A DNA stretch of 64,000 nucleotides from Auriscalpium vulgare (Eukaryota; Basidiomycota; Agaricomycetes; Russulales; Auriscalpiaceae). The stretch spans positions 558,001 through 622,000 of the forward strand of contig JAHBBC010000003.1 in NCBI GenBank assembly GCA_019915015.1, in the 5' to 3' direction. This document shows positions 22,040 to 49,553 of this stretch, piece by piece; the first letter of the stretch is position 1; each line of letters starts with the position of its first letter. Position numbers and translations under genes: made by a program. The notes below the pieces were generated by a model. The model was not told the DNA's origin. It worked only from the letters and a program-made list of their open reading frames with translations, and made no database searches.

Positions 22040-25000
22040 TCATAAATCAGGAATAAAGCTGCCGCTGAGGGCCGAATCCATGACCTCGAGTGCGCCAAGG
22101 TGGAACGGCAGAATCGGGTTTGCCTTCAGCCACCGTGCACGCGCGAGCACTGCGAGCTCGTGAAAGCTTTGCGACACCTCGCGGAGCGTGTCCGCGTCGC
22201 TGATCGTGTTCGTCGAGCGCGGGCTCTTTGCCGCGTGAAGGTGGTGCACATGCATCATCGTGACGGCTGTGTAGTCCGCTGCGCATGGCGCGCGCACGAG
22301 CGTCACACTGTGGCGCGGGCGCAGCTGATGTGTGCTGAAGTGCGCGAAGGGCGATTCGGATGGGTCCGAGATGTGCGGCGCGCATGGTTCGACATTGTGC
22401 GGCTGCGGGAAGGGCGAAAGAAGATTGGCGGAGGGGGCGTGCGTGAGGAGATACGTGGTGGAAGAGATGTCAACCATGAAGGCACCGGGGCAGGCTTAGA
22501 GGGTCGAGAGGCAGAGGATGGAGACTTAGAGGCGGCAGTCGGGGCGAGAAATGTCCAGGAGGCGTCCACCTCAACTGAGAGAAGGGATACGTGGACCATG
22601 GGCAGCTCGCGACATGCTGGGGCTTGTGTGTTGAGATAATGTATCCAAGCTGTGTCGCAAGTTAGAACCTTGCATTTGCGGAAATTAGCGGATACAACTT
22701 ACCATCAACTTCGGTCGTGCCCATAGAGCCGAGCTTCGCAAAGATCAAACGCCACTCTACGCTCGCCTTCTTCGCAAACGCGATTGCAAAGCTCCACAGT
22801 TGCTGCACCACGAACGTTTCGGGTGCATCGCCTTGCATCATCCACACGCCTAGATCATGTGCCTCGCCGCGCTGGTCCATACACGATGCGAGCAACCACT
22901 TCCCACACGACGACACGCGGTACCCAATGTGCAGCAGCGTGTGGCGCTCAAGTACATCCAGCGCACCCGCTGGGTGTTGCCGGACAAACTGCACGCGGCT
23001 CTGCGAGGGGCGCGCGAGCGCGTACGCTGGTTCTTGGAAGAAGTTGCGGATACGCTCGCCGTGTTCGAAAAGCCGCCTTGACATGACGCGGTCGACGGGC
23101 CGCAAGATGCGGTCGTACACTGAGCACACGAATGCGAGCGTGCCGCCACGGTCGGATGCGGCGAAGTAGTGGGAGTGAATGAGATGAGCAGGGAGGAATT
23201 GGAAAAGAATCTGGGCCTCGGAGTAGGTCTTCTGTGCCCGCTTGACCGCGGAGAAGACTTGACGTAAGACAGGGCTGGAAAGCGAGATGGTGGAGGAGGG
23301 GGTTGCGATGTAGAAAACGTAGTTCGCAAGGGTGCTGGGAAGACTGGTGACGAACGCAGCTGTTCGGAAGGGTGGTCAGCTCCACCTTTGGTGACAGTAC
23401 AACTGACGTACCTAAAGTCTTGCGGAACGAGTCGAACCGCAACGGCACCAGGCCATCTCGGGAGCAAGCACTTGACCGACCAGCCAGATGCGACCCGAGG
23501 TTATTCGACTTCATACACCGATGAGTAAACCGCACAACGAGCAAGGTTGCTTACAGCTCACCGTGTATGCGTGTGATATGTACTGAAGCCACTTCTCCGC
23601 CTCATTCTGCCTTTCATCATCCTGCTCTTCGAAGAGCACAAACGCAACGACATCTTTCTTCCCTGCGCGCGGCGTCAAGCCCAGCTTCTCCCAGAATCGC
23701 AGCGCAGTCGGCAACACCTGGATGATGGCATCCGTCTTCCCCACCGTGAGCATGGGAGACTCGAGCTGCTCGAGCGACGGCGCCATGATTTCACCCGTCG
23801 TGCAGTGCGTTGCCTGAAATGCCGTCCGCAAGTCCAGCGGCGCAGTGAGACCGGGAATCGCCTCGAGCGCCTGCGCAACGCGCCGAGCATCGGCCTGCCA
23901 AACCTCCGTGACTGAACGACACTCAGTCCAGTACTCCTTAGCGCTGGCCCGCCACGCGTCGCCCCACACAGGGCTCTCCACAACCTCTTTGGCGAGTATA
24001 TGCGCAGCCGCTTCGAGTGATTTGGATTTCTCGGACGCTGCACCAAGCAGCGCAGCAGGAGAGACGGGCGTAGGCACGGACATGGGGGCAGCTCCGGAAA
24101 GGAGGTTGGGCGGAGAGATGGCCGAGTCTGGTGGCCTTAACGGTGTGCTCAGTGGTAATAGGAGGGCGTGGTTGAAGTATGTGTGCAGCAGGGACGCGGC
24201 AAGGGGCAGATAAGATGGCACTGGCGTCGAAGGACGAATGCCGAGCGGGGAAGGGACTTCATCCTCGTTGTACATTTCCTCATCATCCATGTCATCATCA
24301 GAGTCTATGTCGGATCTACCGTCGTCCTCGTCGTCCGGAGGCGGGGTCTGTATCACATCCCGCGCCCAGTCGTCTGAAGCTCTTGCCCACGACGACGGCG
24401 ACGACGATGTCTTCGCCTCACGATGACCCTGATTAAAGCTCTTCCGCTTGACCCCGATCAGCTTGCGTACTACGCCTATCCGCGGGTCCGTGGCGGCACG
24501 ATATTTTGCCCACATCGTCGGCCGTCCATTCTCTGCAGCGAGCATAGGGATGGGCTGAGTGCGGTCCTCCTCGTCCGGCGGGCTCGGCAGCGCAAATTTG
24601 CCCGCGGTGTACTTGCCGTCGGAGATGCGGTGCACCGACGCGAACGAGATGGGCTCAAAGCTCCGCAGCCCCGGTGCAACCGGGGATTTCAAGCGCCCTC
24701 CTGCGTCGTCGGAAATGTGGACTGTTGCCAGCGGCGTAGCAGGTGCGGACTGAGAAGATGCTGTCTTGGTCGGTGACGGTGGGAGGAGCTCCGGCGCGAG
24801 ATCTAAGCCCTGTGGTACAAAGCCCTCTGTCAACGGATTTGCGCCCCATGGAGACGCTACAGTCGGTGTCAATGCGACCTGCACAGGATCCGTGTAGATC
24901 GGCGATGGCACGCCCAGCGGTGCTGGCCCGGCTGTGGGCGTAAGTCCCGTACCAGAATGCATACGATTGGACATTGGCATCGGCGGCGGACGAGCAGTGC

Positions 25001-27414
25001 CCGAAGACGCAGGTGGCGGCTTTGAGTCCCAGAAGTCGAAATCTGCGTCCGTGAAAATGTCGTCTATCCCGCTCGTGTCCATGTCCATGTCGCCCGAGCC
25101 CCATCCGGCGCCGGTCCCGCCAGCCACCGGATCGACGATGAAGGTCCCATTTCCGTTCAAATTCATCCCCACGCTTCTGCTCATGGGCACGTCGTCCAGG
25201 GACATGCTGTTGATGAAATCCGACGACGACTGCCACGGCGCTGATGGCTGTGACCATTCGTCGAACCCGAAAGTCTCAAACTCCGGCTCAGGGGGCATTG
25301 TGAACGTCACGTCTGCTGCATGTGTGATCTGCGGTGCAGCATCGGTCGGTACTGTCACTGGAGGGAACGACGAAGAAGCTGGTGGAGGTTGTGCTGGCAG
25401 TGGAGCGTCCTTTGCCGATGCCGGTGCGCTGACGGGTTTGGTCTGCGGCGGTGAGGGATAGAATTGTTGTGACGAGGTCTGCGCTTGCACATCACCGATG
25501 CCAAAGTTTGGCAGAGCTGACGCAACGGATGGAGATATCGCGCTTGCCGGTGCGGAGACCATCGGTGATCCGACAGACCCGCCGAATAGACTGCCAGCTA
25601 AAGGTGACATGGCCATGCTGCCTGGGGTGTTGGCCGTGGGCAGGGCGGTAGTCCCCACTGGCAGTGAAGGCGCATTGGTGTTGACAGTTATTCCCTCCCG
25701 CTCTCGCTTCAGGCGCTCTCGTTCGCGTTCCCGCTCTTTGGCGACAGCGTCTACGTAACCGCCGACCTCCCTCGCGACGGTGCCTACGTCGGAGCAAGTT
25801 GCAGTCTCTGTGGAGAGGCAGAGCGTGCGCAAAGCGCGAAGGGCGGCTGGCCCTGGTGCTATTCGCGGATGTGTGCGACGCCTGAAGGCTGGCTGAAGAT
25901 GGTGTCGCGTGGCAATGTTCTCTGGCAGGACGATGGACTGAGTCACAGCGGCCAGAGTGTTCGGCGCGGGAGCCGGCACTGGCGGGGGCGAGGGCTGCAG
26001 AGGAAGAGGAAGATCGGGAAGAGGGGAGAGAGGGGCGCGTGCGTGAAGGGAAGATGAGGAGGGTAGGTACGAGAGAGCGAGGGAGGAGGGCCAGATTATG
26101 GTCAAGCCTTTGGCTTCGCCGTTCTTGTTCTGGACACTAAGCCATGCGATAAAATAGGTAGTTTCTGATGAGGAACATTGCGGCGAAGACATTTGAGAGG
26201 GTTGTGCATTAAACAGCGAACTGCAGCCGAGACCAGTAAGAGACTGTGCAAACTGTGCAGTCAATGCCGAGGTTGGACCGGTATAGCAGGCCAGGTAGTG
26301 CGCAGGAGTGCCGTACGGGAGAAGGGTGACGGGTGTCCCAGCGGGGAGAGGTTGGCAAGGGACGAGAGGCACGTAGTTGGTGGAACGAAGGAGTGGTTGT
26401 ATGAGAAACCGGTCTGCGCACAACGTAAGGTGGAGGTAGGTATGAATCAATGGCCTTGATCTCGGTGTCAGTAAGGAACAATGACGGGACTAAAGTCGCA
26501 CCTGTTTTGAGCGTGATGCTCCCAGCCAGATCCCCAGTCCGACGACGTGCTCTGCGGGAAAATGAGAAAACCGTCGCGTAATCGGCAAAGCCGCCGGCTT
26601 TCACCGGGTGTCAAGTTGCAAATGTCATCGGTCAGGCGGTCGCGGACAGCGAGTATCAGCTGTTCGTGAGGAACACGCAAGGGTTCACGTGGGATGAAGC
26701 TGGCGGAATGATGGATAGGGTCGGTAGGGTAGGTCAGCATCGGGGGAAATATGGAGGGGTTGACGCATGTCGGACAGGGCGTGCTCTGGATCGCGCAGGA
26801 AGGGGAACACGGGTACAGTTGCATTGTCGTAAATGAGGAAGTGTGTGTGCCTGAGGAAAATTAATGAGTATTTGAACAGAGACTGCAAGACCGGAGAAAT
26901 TGGACATGCGCTCCCCCGAGCGACTGAGGACATCCCTGACACAGGGAGATCGATGTAATTGAAAGGGGAGAGGCAGCGTGGCCGTCACACCGCCCACCAA
27001 GGCGTACACCCTATGTTCAAAACTGATGAATGAAAACAGGACGAACTCACAGGATAGCCCTTCAAGGTGCAGGCTCGAAATGGAAGCACGTGACTCTTCC
27101 ACGGCATCGCAGGAAGAAATAGTGAATACGTAGAGGTGTTGCATGTCCTTCTCTTGACGGACGCTGCATAGAATAGAGTCGATGATGGATGGCGTGCGGA
27201 GGAGGTAGAGCTTCCTCCGAGCCAGCTCGACAGCGTCAATACTGAGAGAGGAGGGTGCGGGTGCGGCATATACGGCATAAGCGAATGCGGGTTTCGCGGG
27301 TAGGTTGAGCGCGGAGGAAAGCAGCTTGTTCTCCAGCAATAACAGGGGGGGATACTGGGCGAGGGCAGCTGCGCCTGTGCTTTCTGGGGAGATGGGTTGT
27401 GGCTTGGAGGCCAT
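22040..27414 (-). CDS. MED13: Mediator complex subunit 13 (Cdk8 kinase module)
   Basis: A long multi-exon gene starting at the ATG at 27414 (MASKPQPISPESTG). Several short exons give the N-terminal domain (FVFTISS-like text, HFLIYDNATVPVFPFL). One very large exon follows (~23.55-26.4 kb). It carries GYVDAVAKERERERERLKRE, Ser/Pro-rich linkers, an acidic stretch (PPPDDEDDGRSDIDSDDDMD) and the start of the conserved C-terminal half. Final exons encode LRFDSFRKTL, SHYFAASDRGGTLAFVC, VWMMQGDAPETFVVQQLW and SFHELAVLARARWLKANPILPFH, a typical MED13 C-terminus with a PIWI-like fold. MED13 links the Cdk8 module to core Mediator and mostly represses transcription. I did not fix every splice site at either end, so total length is approximate (~1,600 residues). 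Confidence 0.88.
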
Positions 27415-39990: not shown

Positions 39991-39998
39991 CTACATGA
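39991..39998 (+). repeat. target site duplication, left copy (CTACATGA)
   Basis: 8-bp sequence directly outside the left terminal inverted repeat; identical to 46861-46868 on the other side. Confidence 0.92.
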
Positions 39999-40030
39999 AG
40001 GACCCCCGTAACTCACGCCAGGGGTATGAT
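39999..40030 (+). repeat. left terminal inverted repeat, 32 bp
   Basis: Starts AGGACCCCCGTAACTCACGC and ends GGGGTATGAT. It pairs with the reverse complement of 46829-46860; the only difference is C versus T at position 18 of the repeat. Confidence 0.93.
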
Positions 40031-40038
40031 TTTCGCAC

Positions 40039-40174
40039 GGTAGCTAGACGGCGCTTTGCGCCGGAAGCTCTGAGGGGTCTGAGGTAGCTGGGGGCTAGAA
40101 TTTGGGGCAAAAGTATGATCCTGATGGTGGTAGTTAGGGGCGCGGTGAACCGATGTCTGATCACAGAGGTAGTT
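40039..40174 (+). repeat. left subterminal GGTAGYT repeats
   Basis: GGTAGCT at 40039-40045 and 40083-40089, GGTAGTT at 40129-40135 and 40168-40174. Spacing is 39-46 bp. They may be transposase-binding sites. Confidence 0.5.
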
Positions 40175-40356
40175 GGACTAAGTACTGGCGGCAGAAGATT
40201 TTGACCCCATAATTACCGGTATAATTCGTACAAGTTGAGACATTAGGTAGAAATTTACGTGGCCTGCTGCGTACGACATTCTACGACAACGCCTCGGACC
40301 GAACCTGCTTCTTCTGTGCAGCGCATCACCCTCGCAGCCATCCCGGCATCGTGCCA

Positions 40357-43300
40357 ATGGATGAGTCCATCACAATCTACAACGACGATGAAATACCTAT
40401 GTTCCGTCCCGAATTATGGATCTCGCAAGGCAAAAGCTATCCCCAGAACCCACCGCCGGAGCTGCTGGCCTACATCGAGCAGCTCCTCAGGATTCCCAAC
40501 GCTCCCGAGACTTCTTTGCTCCCCAGCGGCACCGAGGATGTTCATTCCTTCGTATCTACACCACTCCCTCGTCGCGATCAGCAGCTCATACACCCCTCAA
40601 CCAAAGCTGTTTTTAGCCATGACGTGGCAGTCTTCCCCATAACCACACTTACAAAATCACGAAGCCTTCCTACGGATGCCTTCGTGGACAAGCTTGCTGC
40701 ACTCGCACCGCAGGCCATCCTGGATGGCGCACAATCAATCATGGACCCACGATATGCAAGTGGTGCATCCCCGCTGTGGATGATCACTTACTGGCAACGG
40801 ATGCGTACGGTCCTCCTGGCACAGGAGACGTGGACGGCGAGCGTGCGGTGGCTGCTACAAGTCGCTGACGGTTCTATGGAAAGCGAACGCACTGTTGCTC
40901 TTATCCACTCGCTTCCCTGGCGCCAGCAACTCATGATACCCGGTGCCGCCACATTTACGACAACATCAGCCCTTGCTCCGCTGTTATCAGACGGCCTTCT
41001 CACCGACACCATCGTTGACATGATGCTCATGTGGTTGAGAAGCCGCGTTCGGAGCACGCCAGGAATTGCCAACAACTTCGAGATCGCCGGACACGAGTTC
41101 TGGAATGCAATTTCAAAGATCACAGTAATAGAAGACCTGTTCCCCGACTCACCTCGTTACCTCAAGAGAATTGAAGACGATCTGCGCACCCATAGGAAGG
41201 TACTCCTCTTCCCTGTTTTCCTCGCCAAATACAAGCATTTTGTTGTCGTGAAGATCGACGGTCAAGCGGAAACAATATCCTATGGTGAGTACGTTACTAT
41301 GTCGCCAATGGGAATGCAATCTTACCATTCCTGTGAAACAAGGCGACGGCCTTTACCATCAGGGACTGCGCCTGCCTAAAGACATCGAGAAGAAATTGCT
41401 CTGGTGGACGCGTGTCAAATTCGGCATTGAGTACAAGTGGGAGGGACAGTCGCTTACGACAGCGAGACAGACAGATCACGTATCGTGTGGCGTGATCGCC
41501 GTGAATGCGGTCGCACACGAAACACTGGGCTGGCAGCTTTGGGATGATTCAAGGCGCCACGTCGAACGGTTGGCGTGGTTCGAGAGGCTCGCTGCCGACC
41601 ATATTCAATCGGTACGCTATATTTTGCTCATTAGCGACATGAGGACGACGATACTCAGGTGCTCTGCGCAGGTATCAAGTCATCAGCGACGGTCTGATGC
41701 TGTGACAGGCGGCGCCGGACGCGATGAGCCTGTTGCGCATCATATCCCTCGCGGGATGGCCCACCTTCTAAATCCTCAAGCTTCCGAACCCGGCGAGTCG
41801 ACCAGAGATGCTGAATGTCTACTTGAAGGATTCAGTCCAGAGGTGGAAGAAAAGCAGATGGGGCGACGCGGAGACATGGACGAAGGCAGCAAATACGATC
41901 CGTCAATTCCACCTCTGTCAATGCCACCTTCTCCTACATCATCATATTCAGTACTTGCATCTGCTAGTGGCTATGACAGCGACTGCGACGACATACCTAT
42001 GCCCGATACCACCGATACCAGCTGCGCATACGGCCGGTCGTTGCTCTCTCCATCCACTGTCGACGATGATCTCCCACCAGTTCCGCGTGGTGGAATGCTG
42101 GACCAGGATGGGCCTGGCAGTATCACAGAATGGAGAAGCCATTTGGAAAATGGGACTTCTGATGCTGCGTCAATGTCGTCAAGAAGGGTGTCGTCGGTGG
42201 GAAGTGAGGCGGAGGATTGCGCATCCGATGGAAGTCGACTGTCAAGGGCATCTAAGAAGATCATCAGTTCCATTGGGACGACACTGAAGGCTGCGCGGGG
42301 CTTACTGAAAAGGCGGAGGAAAGGGAGCTCGAGCGCAGACGACAAGACGGCTGCGAGCGCGAGTGAAGCAACAAGCGCTCAATCTGACCACGACTCAGAG
42401 GCTCAGGCGCCTATCCATCCTGCAAAACGCACACGCACTGTCCCTGGGCCCATTCATCCGTTCTTCGCGCCCAAGGGAAAGAATAAGGATGTCATTGCTA
42501 CCGTGTCTGCAAGCACCGCAAGCGCTGATGTTGGGCCATCGTCTGGAGCAATCAGCACGCGCCTGGCCAATTCCTTCGTCAAACGCGGTAGGGACGACAA
42601 CTCAAAGGCGTATACCAAATTCAAGGAGAAAATCCTTGCGCTTGACGACATGGCCGAGTTCTGTCTAGACGATGTTCGGAAGGTCCGATGCTCTCGATGC
42701 AACAAGTACATGCTTATGACTGGGGCGTATCACACCAAGGCATTCAAACAGCACCAGAAAGTTTGCAAGGGCACAATGCGATCACATACACTGGGCCACA
42801 TCTGGGCATCAACCTCATCGACGCAGGCCCCCGCTCCGAGAATGATAGATCGTCCTTGTTTCGGACTTCGCGCAGCAAAATACGCTCGTGTGCGTCAATA
42901 TTTGGAGCGCACACCATACGGCGGGGGCGGCGGGCCTTCCCTCGCCGATTTGGCGTTAGAGTTGTATTCGGCACCAGATTATCGTTCGTTGGATAAGGCC
43001 AGAAAGCAAGTAGTCGACACGGAGCAAGAGCATCGGTGGCAGTGGAAGAACTATCGGTCGCCTCCCCTTCATGTCCTTGCGACAGATTGTCTTCGCACTG
43101 TAAGGGTGCCGGAAGAGTCAACTGAGGATGTTACTTGTGTCAACTGCCTCGCTCTGCTGCATGTCCACGTATTCCAGAATGCGACTCGCAAGCCAGTCCC
43201 CGAGCCTAAGAATCGCCGCTTCACCCCCAATCATGCTCAGAAAGACGACATACAGGCCCTCCATCGATATGCTCTTACTCATCCCGACCTTGCACCTCTT

Positions 43301-46300
43301 CTGGAGGCATACGAAGATGTCAGTAGCTTCAAGTTCATAGTATCCCCACGTTACAGCTTCTGATCATTGTCTGCACAGAACCCTCATAGTGCATGCCTAG
43401 TCTTCGCAAGAGGCGTTATCGAGGGCAAGCATGGCAATTCCTTGTTTGTCGCCTTGATGAACGATCTCGTCAAGAAGAAAGATTTAGAAGAACGAGGTGT
43501 CCCTTTGAACGGCATGCGATATTCAGCCATGACATTGGAGTGGGCGCAAATTATCCACGTCTTAAGCCCGCGAGCATATGAATCCATGATGAATGTGCTA
43601 CCCGTACCCGCAGAACGGACACTCCAGTCAGTGTTTACAAGATTGCATTGATACAATTGACTGATAAATGACCCGAAGGAAACGTCGTGCGCACGAAGTG
43701 CAGTTTCCCATCGGCATCACAGAGGCAACATTTGAATTTATCTACGAACGGCTGAAATCATTGGACTACCTTGTGGGTCCCGTTGGCCTCGCATGTGATG
43801 ATACGAAGCTGCTAGAGTCTTTGAGGCCTCACTGGGACCCAATACGAAAGTGCTACGTGCTTCTAGGGAGTCCTGGCGATCCCGTCGTCGTGAGCGACAT
43901 CAACACACTCGATGCCCTCATCCGCACCAGGAAGATCGAGAAGGCTAAGAAGGTATGAGTTCTACGAATACTTCGGAGGCATGCAGCTCACCGACACATG
44001 CCAGATACGCGTATGGACCCTCCAGATCCCTCTTCCCGGCGTTCCGACTATCGTCGTTGCGGCGCTCCCTATCTCAGAGTCAAACTCGGCGGAGCAACTG
44101 TTCGTCCACCTGGAATTAATATTGAATGGCCTTCTCTCCCGCAAGATCAACGTTGTATCCTACGCCGCAGACGGCACGGCTGTCGAGCGCTCCCTTCAAC
44201 GTCTCCTGGTCGCTCACGCCGTTGCGTACATTGACTACACCCTCAGGCACCCTATTCGCTCACATCGTGACATCAACCTCCACATTCCTCTCATCGGCGC
44301 AGGGCGACAGCCTGTCGCACTCATTCAAGATTCGAACCATGGGCGCAAGACGTACCGGAACAACGCATTCTCAGGTGCCCGGATACTTACTTTGGGCAGC
44401 TATACGACGTCGTACAGCCACTTCCGCCTTGCAGCAATTGAAGCAACAGGGACATTGTTTCGGAGGGATGTCGAGAAACTTGATCGACAAGACGACAATG
44501 CTGCGACCCGTCTCTTCTCCGGTCATACGCTAGCATGGTTCACCAACGAGCATCGTGAAATGGTCGGCTCGATTATCTACCTCTTTGTGTTTGGAGAGCT
44601 CGTGGATGCATACCAGAATCGATCGATCCCAATTATCGAACGTGTTCGCATGGTGCTGCGTGCGCACTTCTTCATGGAAATGTGGACCGACTTCATGGAC
44701 ATCGCGGGCTACCGAAAAGCTCAACACTTCATATCTCCCGAGGCACGCGACATCACAAACTTCCTAGTCGTTGGTTTCCTTCAGTTGGTGATCATCTATC
44801 GGGACCACCTCGACGGCAGATACCCATTGCTGCCCTGGCTTCTATCAACCGAAGTCTGTGAGCATGTCTTCGGCATTTGTCGACAGCTTGTGAAGGACTT
44901 CACCTTGCAAGACTTCTATCATATGATTCCGAAGCTCTCAGTCCGCTTGCGCGAGCATCTCTTCCTTGCAAAGACATCTGAGGGCAAGGAAAGAGCGAAT
45001 GGATACAATCATACCTATACCGACAATCGACATCTCGACCTCCATGCCCTCTCCACATTCCCTTCTGATCACGACATTGAGCAAGCAACACAACAGGCCC
45101 ATTCGGAGGCAGCGAATCTGTGGGACGCTCTCGTACTAGACCCGGATTTTCTGGACAAATTGCAGAATCAAGCTCACCGTGTTCGCGCATTCCCATCGTT
45201 GTCGAGTTGGTATTCGCAGGAGGCTTGGGATGCAATCTATGGCCAGTCCGATTCCGAAGACGAGGGTCCTGAGATGGACGAAGACGAGCCCGAGATGCTC
45301 CAGATTGAAAATGGGTTGAAGAAGGCAGAGAATGCAGACGGAGTTGGTGCGGTCTTCGACCAGCAGTTGAACGATTTGACTTGCGCAGCAGCTGCCTTAT
45401 GCGTCCAGAGCACTGTCGACATGTTCGTGTTTTGTCCTCCTCTCACCGCCGATAGATCTTACAGAGTCTAACCCTCACATTACTAGACTGCAATTGCCTG
45501 AAGACACAGCGGATGCAACACGCAAAGACGCTGCACATATAGGGAAGATCCTCGCCCAGTCGCTCCCTGCTGTGTCCGACCCCGACGAGCGCAGGACCTT
45601 CCAGGACACAGTGATCTCTGCTGAATTCGATCTCGAACAGCTCGCAGTCATCCGCCGGTCGCATCATACCAGACAGGCTGAGAAAGGTGTCCGAACAAAG
45701 GCCTTCAAGTCCTCGGAAGATCTACCACCTTCCTCTGATAACGGTCCACCCGCCCAGTCAACGCTCTCCGAGAAAAAACGCCTTCTGCAGTTGGTCAAGG
45801 ATGTTCTCAAGCGTCAAGAAGAGCGCGGTGTTACAGAGCGCGGTGTTACCACGGGCGCGGGTCGGTCGATGCGCTGGCGGCAGCCAGCTGCGGGCGGTCG
45901 AGACGGAGCAATCAACGGCGAAGAAGCTGTTGCTCCTGCACCAGGGACGGCTGCAAACGCGGCTGAGGTCGCTGCAAATGCATCGTATCAGGTGCGTCTG
46001 CTAGTGTTGTATGAGTGCACATACATGGTATTGACGTCCGCCAGGCTGAACGGAGGCGAGCAGCGATCTTCGCAAAGCATCACGTCCCCAAGGTCGCACA
46101 CTCGGCCAATGTCACGCCGCTCAAACACCTCTACGCTGCTCACACTGGCATGCCGCCTTCTTATGGCTTGGTTCTTGTTGATGAGGCAATCTGCCTTGCA
46201 GAAGGTGCGTCGTAATCTTCAACATGACTCGGCATGCGCTGATGGCTGGTTAGTCCTGACCATGTACGAGAAGTCGGCCGGTAAGAACGGCAAACATGGT

Positions 46301-46621
46301 TGGGCTTCGGACACGTCTCGCATCACCGCTCTTTCTTACATCGCTGTGAGACTGTTCAAGCCGGTCCGACACAACCAATTCTCCCTCGCCGATCCTAGCA
46401 AGATCCCTCGGTTCGCCTTCCTGAAACCGTCCTACTTCCTGTATGCCCTCGACCATCCCCTCCAAACCTCGGGCTCAACACTAGCTTTGGTAAAATCTGA
46501 TGGCGCGTGCTATGTCGCCCTCAAGCAGAACGTCGCGAATATCGCTCGTGCTATCAAGGAGCTTAGTGGGAGGGTCAAGGCGGGTCTTGAACAGGCGGGT
46601 GACGATGAACCAGATGAATAG
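40357..46621 (+). CDS. Ulp1-like protease fused to P-like transposase, 1958 aa
   Basis: Eight exons: 40357..41284, 41343..43318, 43379..43626, 43679..43952, 44005..45422, 45487..45991, 46045..46204, 46254..46621; all introns are GT-AG and phases sum to 1,959 codons. Residues ~1-400 end in a C48 cysteine protease core: KHFVVV (H294), YGDGL (D311), ARQTDHVSCG (Q352, C358). H-to-D spacing is 17 and Q-to-C spacing 6, as in Ulp1. A disordered Ser-rich linker follows, then CSRCNKYMLM..YHTKAFKQHQKVC (near 758-783), a C2HC-like metal site. The transposase part has LACDDTKLL (~1090), SYAADGTAVERSLQ (~1195), ALIQDSNHGRKTYRNNAFSG (~1250), DRQDDNAATRLFS and STEVCEHVFG (~1425), giving candidate D/D/E residues. 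The alternative is two genes with a spurious junction, but exon 2 is one open frame across it. Confidence 0.82.
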
Positions 46622-46731
46622 GTCAGTTTGACAGGCCTCTGCGCATCCGTAGTACATCCCCTCCTGCCTGCACGCAAAGCGGAGCTTTTTACAATAAACT
46701 ACGATTTTTTTGAAGCTATGATCCTATCCGT

Positions 46732-46813
46732 GGTAGCTACGGACCCCAAACGGAGGTCTGAGGGGCGAATGGTAGCTGGAAGGGGTCGCGAGCCGCAAAA
46801 AAAAATGGTAGTT
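46732..46813 (+). repeat. right subterminal GGTAGYT repeats
   Basis: GGTAGCT at 46732-46738 and 46771-46777, GGTAGTT at 46807-46813. They are on the same strand as the left-end copies, so they are direct rather than inverted between ends. CTGAGGGG..GGTAGCTGG occurs at both ends (near 40070-40091 and 46758-46779). Confidence 0.5.
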
Positions 46814-46828
46814 GACCCCGTTTGGCGG

Positions 46829-46860
46829 ATCATACCCCTGGCATGAGTTACGGGGGTCCT
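46829..46860 (-). repeat. right terminal inverted repeat, 32 bp
   Basis: Reads ATCATACCCC ... GGGGGTCCT on the plus strand and is the inverse of the left repeat with one mismatch. Confidence 0.93.
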
Positions 46861-46868
46861 CTACATGA
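46861..46868 (+). repeat. target site duplication, right copy (CTACATGA)
   Basis: Identical to 39991-39998 and directly adjacent to the right terminal repeat. Confidence 0.92.
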
Positions 46869-46884
46869 CACCTGGGATTGAGAG

Positions 46885-46940
46885 CAATGACATCATTCCG
46901 GGTTTTAAATTACATTTAAAACCCCGGGATGATGTCATTG
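46885..46940. repeat. near-perfect 25/26-bp inverted repeat (hairpin)
   Basis: Left arm 46885-46909 and right arm 46915-46940 are complementary apart from one extra base and one mismatch, with a 5-nt loop TTACA. It lies 16 bp outside the transposon's right target duplication. It may be a tiny foldback element, a remnant of another insertion, or part of the BOR1 3' region. Confidence 0.7.
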
Positions 46941-47336: not shown

Positions 47337-49553
47337 CTAGGGACGGCATGAAATTCCTCCCACTGACTCCATCGTCTGCACACTCGCACATCAGTCAGTA
47401 GATTGCCAAAGGTTACTAAGCACTCACGAAAGGTGAAGCCGTCGGGCCATCGAGAATAGCCAACTCTTCTGCAGTGAATGGCAGACGCGGGACTACGATC
47501 GTGCGTAGCGGGATGAGCAAGAGGATGATGACCGGGAAACCAATGGCAGCTATCGTTAATTCAGCAAACCGAGGGGTGTTAGGTCATTTGCAAGGCAAGT
47601 TACCGATCGTTTGCGTGATGGCAAACGTAGCCCCGAAACCTGCGAGCTGCACAGCGACAAACAGCAGAATGCGCGACTTGCGCACGCGCCGCAAGGGATC
47701 GTCTGCTCTTGTGAATTTACGATCGTCGAGGAAGTAGCGCAGCTTCAGGGTGATTCCGTTGCCCGCAAGGGCGTCGAGGCCCATATACCAGCTGACCAGC
47801 ATTAGAGCCTTTTTTGGGCGCAATGGAATAAGGAAGACTTACAAAAGACCCGCCAACACTCCTGGTGTGCAGATGAGTTTATGAAGACAGCTGCGAAAGG
47901 CCGCCCACCTCTTGGAACCAAGTTCAAAACGTGTAGGAAGGGACCGCTAAGGAGCACGAGGCAAAGCGAGCCCTGTGCAAGATTCGACAGTCGCTGCTCG
48001 ACGACCGCCACTGGGACTTCACGCCAAGGAGAGTCGGGGCCTTCTGCGGGATCCCCGTGATAATGCGCGCCATCCTCTGTAGCGATTTTTTTTTCGTCGT
48101 CTTCTTTGACAGGCTGACCCATGACGAGTAATGATTGAGTATGAATAGGGGCCTGGGGTATGAGACCGTTCGGCGCAGGCAGGCCGAGCAAGGCCGCGAG
48201 GAAGGTTGTGATGCCGAGCAGGAAGAAATCGTAGTGAAAGCCGGGAGGCTTCCGGAGTGGGAAATCCGACCCTTGGGCTATCAATGACTGCAGGCTCGTT
48301 GGGTCAAGCGCAAAGGCCACGAGGAAGGAAGACACTCACCGAAACATTGTGGTCGAAGAAGAACAGAACCCACAAGGCAACGCCAAACGGAAATGCGATG
48401 CCAACCCACTTCCCATCGAGCTGCCAAAAGCGCACGAGCCACTCGCGCCCATTTGCAGGCTGGAACGCGCGACTCACGGGCAGGGTGAGAGGGTTGGCAT
48501 CGTTGAAGCGCCCCCAATACGCCATCGCTGAAGACGCGATGAGGGCGATAGGCATGCCGTAGTCTGCAAGAAACCGCCTCACGTGCCTGTGGAAGAGGTG
48601 CGAGCGCGCGGCGAACTGGAATAGGAAGGACGTGACGAGCATGAGGAGTGCGAGCACAATGGACACGAGCGCGCCGGTGAGCGTCGATTCAGGGTCAGAG
48701 AACTGGCGCGTGACGACCTGGATACCGTATTGAAGGTATACCCAGGCAACGTAGAAGCCGAAGGTATCACAGGAAAAGAGGGTAACATAGCGCAGGAAAT
48801 TGCACCCTGGGGTAACATGAGATATGATATAGAAACTTAGTCGGAGACTGACAGTTTAGAAGAGCTGTGATCCAGTGCAAAATTGCGCCCCATAGGTACA
48901 CCCAGCCTATGAAGTGCAGATAGTTGGGAGAGTCAGGATGCTTCTCTATGATGTTGTAGATAGTCTGGTTGAGGACCGTAATTGGGCCTGTCGGGTCGAT
49001 TGTTAGACAACCAAGTAGAGATGGCGGATAGGAGGACGCACCGGTGACACCTGCGATGCACAGCGGCTGAGCACCAAAGACAGAGAATATGAACGCTGCC
49101 ATGAACGAAGACAGTAGCACTTCAGACACGCCGTACTGATGTGTCGTCTCAATTAAGTCTAGGGAGAATGCGATGCCAGGAAGCACGCTGTAGCAAAGAT
49201 ATGTCAGTGCTGTCCAGACCAGTACTACCGCTTTCGGTGTGCTACAAGGCGACGTACTTGGCGAAGAAGATAAGCGTGGTCGCTGGAATGACCCTGTAAT
49301 TCCATGCGTCCTTCCAATCGCTCCAGTACCAAGGGGCACGAGAGCGTATGTCCCGCACGATGCCCGCGCCCACTCTCACTCTAAAGAAAGATGATAACCA
49401 TGCAGGCGAATGCGTCGGGGGCGAACCGTGCAGAGTTGCAGATGCCGCAGAGGATGCGATGGGTGATGGCTCCGTATTCGCCGCTCTAGCAGGCTCGGTG
49501 ACCGGCCTGGGGCTAGCGCGCATGTTGCGTAGGCTGGGCGTTGCGGAAGACAT
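47337..49553 (-). CDS. BOR1: borate/anion transporter of the SLC4 family
   Basis: Starts at ATG 49553 (MSSATPSLRNMRASP) and is split by many short introns; the last exons are 47428..47549 and 47337..47375, preceded by a ~19-nt exon reading VLAGLF. Characteristic SLC4 text runs in order: RVIPATTLIFFANVLPGIAF, SSFMAAFIFSVFGAQPLCIAGVTG, FIGWVYLWGAILHWITALLN, GKWVGIAFPFGVALWVLFFFDH, GFHYDFFLLGITTFLAALLGLPAPNG (read in parts), GLFWYMGLDALAGNG and the C-terminal EELAILDGPTASPFTMESVGG. These give 10-14 membrane helices. Fungal Bor1 exports borate across the plasma membrane and affects vacuolar traffic in yeast. I did not fix every intron. The family call is very strong. Confidence 0.93.

Follow-up and report, generated by a model that had tools for sequence, protein, structure and literature searches.

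A complete DNA transposon in Auriscalpium with a predicted P-type DDE transposase and a likely Ulp1-like protease

Among the described systems closest to the transposon reported here, an element of 6,862 bp at positions 39999-46860 of a 64,000-nucleotide window from Auriscalpium (contig JAHBBC010000003.1, positions 558,001 to 622,000; coordinates below are those of the window), is the P element of Drosophila (6p5a, 6pe2). Both are flanked by 8-bp target-site duplications, and both have, in our case by prediction, a helix-turn-helix (HTH) domain and an RNase H core with an insertion domain; the P element inverted repeats of 31 bp, as given in the available part of a review (PMC7776569), are like the 32-nt repeats of the window element. 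Unlike the P element, the window element has no detected THAP domain, a protease-like N-terminus and a C2HC motif, and it is 6.9 kb long, encodes a predicted protein of 1,938 amino acids and resides in a fungus, while the symmetric target preference of the P element is only weakly seen in its family. According to the same excerpt of the review, THAP domains are absent from fungi, and a 2014 survey of RNase H-like enzymes lists, in its accessible text, Amoebozoa and Chromalveolata besides insects as holders of distant relatives of the P element (PMC3985635).

Fungal P-type elements are already known as a label, since 'P-Fungi' appears as a class in the available parts of repeat tables (PMC12387193, PMC8594854), with 10 copies and 46,557 bp in Pleurotus ostreatus PC80 in the first of these excerpts. 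By its label, compared here through the table entry alone, this class is a P-type mushroom element, and the window family likely falls in it. Relatives are also two hypothetical proteins of Auriscalpium vulgare, P0006 (68% identical over the core) and P0007, which represent families different from that of the window and are annotated only in part. The Favolaschia claudopus protein P0125 has a protease-like region, a CSRC motif, an HTH region and the start of a catalytic core in the same order as the window protein; it differs in being 24-25% identical and in stopping before the third catalytic acid. No description of a fungal P-type element with an Ulp1-like part was found among the literature matches listed, and the accessible portions of five further papers (PMC6416283, PMC3411680, PMC8290104, PMC9674265, PMC10983969) contain nothing on fungal P elements. 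Within the open literature searched, and as far as shown, what is new is an architecture that includes a protease-like part and in which no THAP domain was detected, together with an expansion this young.

We conclude with high confidence that the window carries a complete DNA transposon whose predicted P-element-type DDE transposase is joined to a likely Ulp1-like protease.

Ends, copies and insertion sites

The boundaries of the element are defined by the following features, in which a binding function of the GGTAGYT repeats is proposed.

39991-39998 (+): left target-site duplication, CTACATGA, identical to 46861-46868; present as a single copy at four uninterrupted target copies
39999-40030 (+): 32-nt terminal inverted repeat on the left; the genome has 69 identical left ends
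40039-40176 (+): four subterminal GGTAGYT repeats starting at 40039, 40083, 40129 and 40168, candidate transposase binding sites
46732-46813 (+): three subterminal GGTAGYT repeats starting at 46732, 46771 and 46807, likewise candidate sites
46829-46860 (-): 32-nt terminal inverted repeat on the right; the genome has 65 identical right ends
46861-46868 (+): right target-site duplication, CTACATGA, identical to 39991-39998

A reading made earlier from the sequence alone had described 32-bp inverted repeats with one mismatch, flanked by identical octamers. Both statements hold: 31 of 32 positions pair (97% complementary), and CTACATGA occurs in the window at 39991 and 46861 only, once on each side of the element. 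The GGTAGYT motif is found seven times in the element, always on the + strand, versus five times on both strands of the remaining 57 kb; measured from the nearer end, its starts lie at 41, 85, 131 and 170 on the left and at about 129, 90 and 54 on the right. Six of the seven occurrences of the longer form GGTAGYTRS in the window are inside the element, a count reached in one of 100 window shuffles.

The element is repeated many times in its own genome (51.6 Mb in 96 contigs). A search with the 32-nt end, allowing up to 3 mismatches, gave 133 matches versus none for the reversed control, so that the ends are beyond chance. With end-specific patterns of 35 nt and the same tolerance, 69 left and 65 right ends were found, all with 0 mismatches, and the unpaired repeat position is C in every left end and T in every right end. 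These ends form 59 same-strand pairs, 57 of which span 6,815-6,914 bp, leaving 10 left and 6 right ends unpaired. Twenty copies were compared over their full sequence, the remaining pairs mostly through 30-nt flanks. Eleven of the 20, the window copy among them, are byte-identical, and differences from the window copy total 39 one-base deletions, one insertion and three substitutions; 33 of the deletions fall in homopolymer runs of at least 2, which make up about 41% of the bases. These small differences look more like sequencing error than decay. Twelve copies encode an identical protein and the other eight are frame-shifted as assembled, while the exon-6 frame is present at full length and 100% identity at no fewer than 45 places among the candidates scored. 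Three substitutions in 19 x 6,862 bp correspond to about 2e-5 per site. Fungal substitution rates are 1e-9 to 1e-8 per year, which would make the expansion some thousands to some tens of thousands of years old.

No deletion derivatives were seen among the 57 end pairs shorter than 9 kb, the shortest being 6,815 bp. Miniature inverted-repeat transposable elements (MITEs) were considered and rejected: 133 inverted-repeat matches against 134 family ends leave little room for derivatives keeping just these repeats. Local hopping is not claimed either. In a test covering 50 of 72 places, which lie on contigs of known length, 7 neighbour pairs lay within 50 kb versus 3.1 expected (126 of 5,000 simulations were as high) and 8 versus 5.9 within 100 kb; this clustering is only mild, and repeat-rich contig ends, within 100 kb of which 15 copies lie versus 8.1 expected, could explain it.

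Identical 8-mers flank 47 of the 57 pairs in a scripted comparison, all 47 distinct from one another, versus 0 of 3,136 control cross pairs. One of the ten scripted failures was a mis-pairing of nested copies on contig C42, the inner flanked by GCTAGACG and the outer by ATTCGCCC; after its correction, and with a 13.9-kb end pair on contig C89 left out of the count, a perfect 8-bp duplication is present at 49 of 58 insertions. At this nested place (C42:95500-109231), the inner family copy lies within the left end of the outer one, each with its own duplication. Over the 46 sites with complete flanks, the target preference is weak and symmetric, with G at -3 (24/46), a pyrimidine at -2 (34/46) and G at -1 (27/46) on the left and a purine at +11 (40/46) and C at +12 (23/46) on the right. 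A palindromic target was rejected for the single sites: the column counts are symmetric, yet the self-complementarity of the sites does not clearly exceed that of column-shuffled ones (as high in 90 of 1,000 shuffles over 8 bp, 393 over 14 bp and 734 over 20 bp).

The joined flanks of the 18 duplication-bearing full copies were searched against the own genome, and in a second search the best 40 of 78 candidates were scored. For at least five of the 18, other places in the genome match the joined site through the junction. The window copy has three such places at 100% and others of lower identity; of the other insertions, L042 has 19 at 100%, L047 19 at 99%, L036 three at 94% and L035 one at 87%. 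In each of the four window-target copies that were read, CTACATGA stands once only, in matching surroundings (232-303 bp at 97-100% identity), and the joined flanks of L047 align with L025 without gaps over 592 nt at 99%. These empty sites are paralogous rather than allelic. The checks proposed with the sequence-only reading gave full-length copies and paralogous empty sites, and no deletion derivatives among the 57 end pairs under 9 kb; its claim of a complete and recently moved element is supported by the byte-identical copies, the private 8-bp duplications and the uninterrupted target copies.

Several observations concern the insertion targets themselves. L042 and L047 sit in a high-copy repeat with many uninterrupted copies (L025:708-1299 and the flanks of these two copies), which we take, from a motif recognised by eye, to encode a Copia-like retrotransposon protein. 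Just right of the window insertion, a near-perfect hairpin (46885-46940; 25-nt arms, 88% complementary, 6 nt apart) is part of the target repeat, of which the genome has further copies. Nearby host frames on the minus strand match the bicarbonate transporter family (47805-48335) and MED13 (23514-26489). A tRNA scan found none.

Predicted transposase core and protease-like region

The predicted gene and the positions discussed below are as follows.

40357-46621 (+): single gene, nine exons, predicted 1,938 amino acids, open spliced frame
40357-41284, 41343-41611, 41672-43318, 43379-43626, 43679-43952 (+): exons 1-5
44005-45422, 45487-45991, 46045-46204, 46254-46621 (+): exons 6-9
41236-41488 (+): likely Ulp1-type protease residues H294 (41236-41238), D311 (41345-41347), Q352 (41468-41470) and C358 (41486-41488), with the family assignment under the Pfam cut-off
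42689-42766 (+): zinc-finger-like C2HC motif C739-C742-H760-C764, found by eye, possibly DNA-binding
43511-44965 (+): HTH and DDE RNase H core of P-element type, including the insertion domain, at about residues 993-1442, predicted from 68% identity to P0006 and the fold of P0006
43797-43802 (+): D1071/D1072, likely first catalytic acid, in 21 of 21 aligned rows covering the position
44170-44172 (+): D1178, likely second catalytic acid, in 56 of 56 rows
44860-44862 (+): E1408, likely third catalytic acid, in 55 of 56 rows; the alternative E1405, three residues earlier, in 54 of 56

The spliced frame is open from the ATG at 40357 to the stop at 46621. Homologue alignments span introns 1 and 2 and introns 4 and 5, and the remaining junctions were placed by eye. 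Removal of an in-frame intron of 60 nt (41612-41671) gives nine exons and 1,938 amino acids, whereas its retention gives eight exons and 1,958 amino acids; the earlier count of eight joined exons without stop or frameshift fits the latter version.

The sequence-only reading had given the element no family name, and it is placed here in the P superfamily because of a fold comparison and the HTH profile of its relatives. With P0006 standing in for the window protein, the predicted fold matches the P element transposase, including the insertion domain. The P-element HTH profile PF12017 scores above its cut-off in three of ten relatives (P0008, P0033 and P0075), and the last D-D-E spacing is 229 versus 228 in the P element. 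The assignment is supported by this modelled fold and by PF12017 in the relatives; sequence searches of PDB, using either the exon-6 frame or the alignment, produced chance-level matches only.

The N-terminal part is likely an Ulp1-like protease. For residues 1-470 one relative was found, P0125 (E 2e-17), whose UniRef name begins 'Ubiquitin-like protease'; against SENP3 the window region reaches E 0.17 only. Common to the window protein and P0125 are the H, D, Q and an SCG, and H294, D311, Q352 and C358 are presumed to be catalytic. The CSRC motif (part of C2HC), the HTH region and the beginning of the catalytic core are likewise present in P0125, so that a second lineage has its parts arranged in this order. 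A further observation by eye is that IHPFF before the zinc motif (42452-42472, residues about 660-666) recalls PCNA-binding motifs; P0125 has ITGFF after its own CSRC motif.

A number of results weigh against this description. In P0006 the spacing of the first two acids is 107, versus 73 in the P element, and the Foldseek comparison of the P0006 fold has a TM-score of 0.39 by query and 0.62 by target, with a root-mean-square deviation of 8.0. With 14.2 of 23 bits the window protein does not reach the PF12017 cut-off, nor does its nearest relative P0006 with 14.8, and a THAP domain had no Pfam match in the exon frames, the first 399 or the last 1,054 residues. For the protease, Pfam gave no match in the window's own region, P0125 scores 18.3 bits against Peptidase_C48 with a cut-off of 20.7, and the structure model of P0125 (pLDDT 36) was not used. 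Finally, nine insertions depart from the perfect duplication: seven have none, one has a 7-bp match and one is at a contig end with 5 bases left. In the seven (e.g. L034 and L045), the ends are intact and the flanking 8-mers differ. No partners for them were found among the other paired copies; recombination between copies, deletion or misassembly could have produced them.

Origin, present activity and rival explanations

Relatives of the element occur across Russulales, the order of the host, A. vulgare included. The MED13 frame of the window is 98% identical over 97% to A. vulgare (the next species being at 49%), which makes the host this species or a close sister, yet the listed P-type proteins of A. 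vulgare are 58% and 61% identical to the exon-6 frame of the window, so that two close genomes seem to carry different P families. Searches of the own genome with P0006 and P0007 led to places of the window family, mostly at 63% and 59% (39-74% by segment). In all four sister-family searches, window-family places only were recovered, as judged by eye against the list of ends, among the candidates scored (P0003 82/123, P0033 62/214, P0006 60/277 and P0007 58/164); with scoring limited to these shares, old and diverged families may have escaped notice. The differing families fit fast turnover or horizontal transfer.

A recent spread of the element is likely, and the data are compatible with activity today. 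How the spread began is evenly poised as regards a burst of a long-resident lineage, in which horizontal transfer would have no part. The relatives across Russulales agree with such a burst, and repeat masking before annotation could hide the window family in A. vulgare; it is opposed by the lack of diverged older family copies, and of the A. vulgare families P0006 and P0007, among the candidates scored, the latter despite the identity of MED13. That the element was recently active and is now silent, its copies merely looking intact, is a substantial possibility, though one we hold to fall slightly short of even. Fungi often silence repeats, several insertions sit in repeats and eight of the 20 copies are without an intact protein as assembled; on the other hand, eleven are byte-identical, the small differences mostly resemble sequencing error, and the paired ends include no deletion derivatives. 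We put forward only tentatively the reading that a P-superfamily transposon with a SUMO-protease-like domain and without THAP recently entered Auriscalpium by horizontal transfer and is still invading it. The element would then, with the same reserve, be a fungal counterpart of the P element sweep in Drosophila, at a stage before deletion derivatives and repression. Among viral contigs, there were no matches to the element end and no encoded relative.

Membership in the hAT superfamily is very improbable. Such elements likewise make the 8-bp duplications observed here, and Hermes is among the structure matches of the P0006 fold, but Pfam scans detected neither a hAT transposase nor a hAT dimerization domain. 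The 2014 survey, in its accessible text, clusters the P element transposase near hAT families (PMC3985635). It is highly implausible that the identity of the copies arose in assembly or polishing: polishing can even out repeats, and the differences are, as in long-read consensus error, almost all one-base and mostly homopolymer deletions, but flanks and 8-bp duplication are private to most insertions, and an assembler would not invent them. Kyakuja-Dileera-Zisupton (KDZ) elements carry Ulp1. Membership in KDZ or another fungal superfamily with such proteases is nevertheless barely credible, for although the N-terminus is protease-like and KDZ elements are present in mushrooms according to the available part of one report (PMC12730594), the core fold matches the P element and the Pfam scans contain no KDZ family.

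Proposed mechanism and significance

Under the P-type reading, the transposase would excise the element and reinsert it at another site, working as the P element transposase does. Binding to the subterminal GGTAGYT repeats and to the inverted ends may fall to the zinc motif and the HTH domain, cutting would be performed by a D-D-E RNase H site split by the insertion domain, and the ends would be joined across an 8-bp stagger at loosely palindromic targets. The N-terminal protease may remove SUMO or a similar tag from the transposase or from chromatin proteins. The expansion would be young enough for working copies to remain.

To our knowledge, nearly all work on P elements has been done in animals, where initial DNA binding by the transposase goes through its THAP domain. 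A young, high-copy mushroom relative with a protease-like part and without a detected THAP domain would separate the basic features of P transposition from animal additions. The identical copies, the target preference and the empty sites are material for direct tests of activity, and a first expansion wave without deletion derivatives would let the response of a fungal genome to a new transposon be followed.
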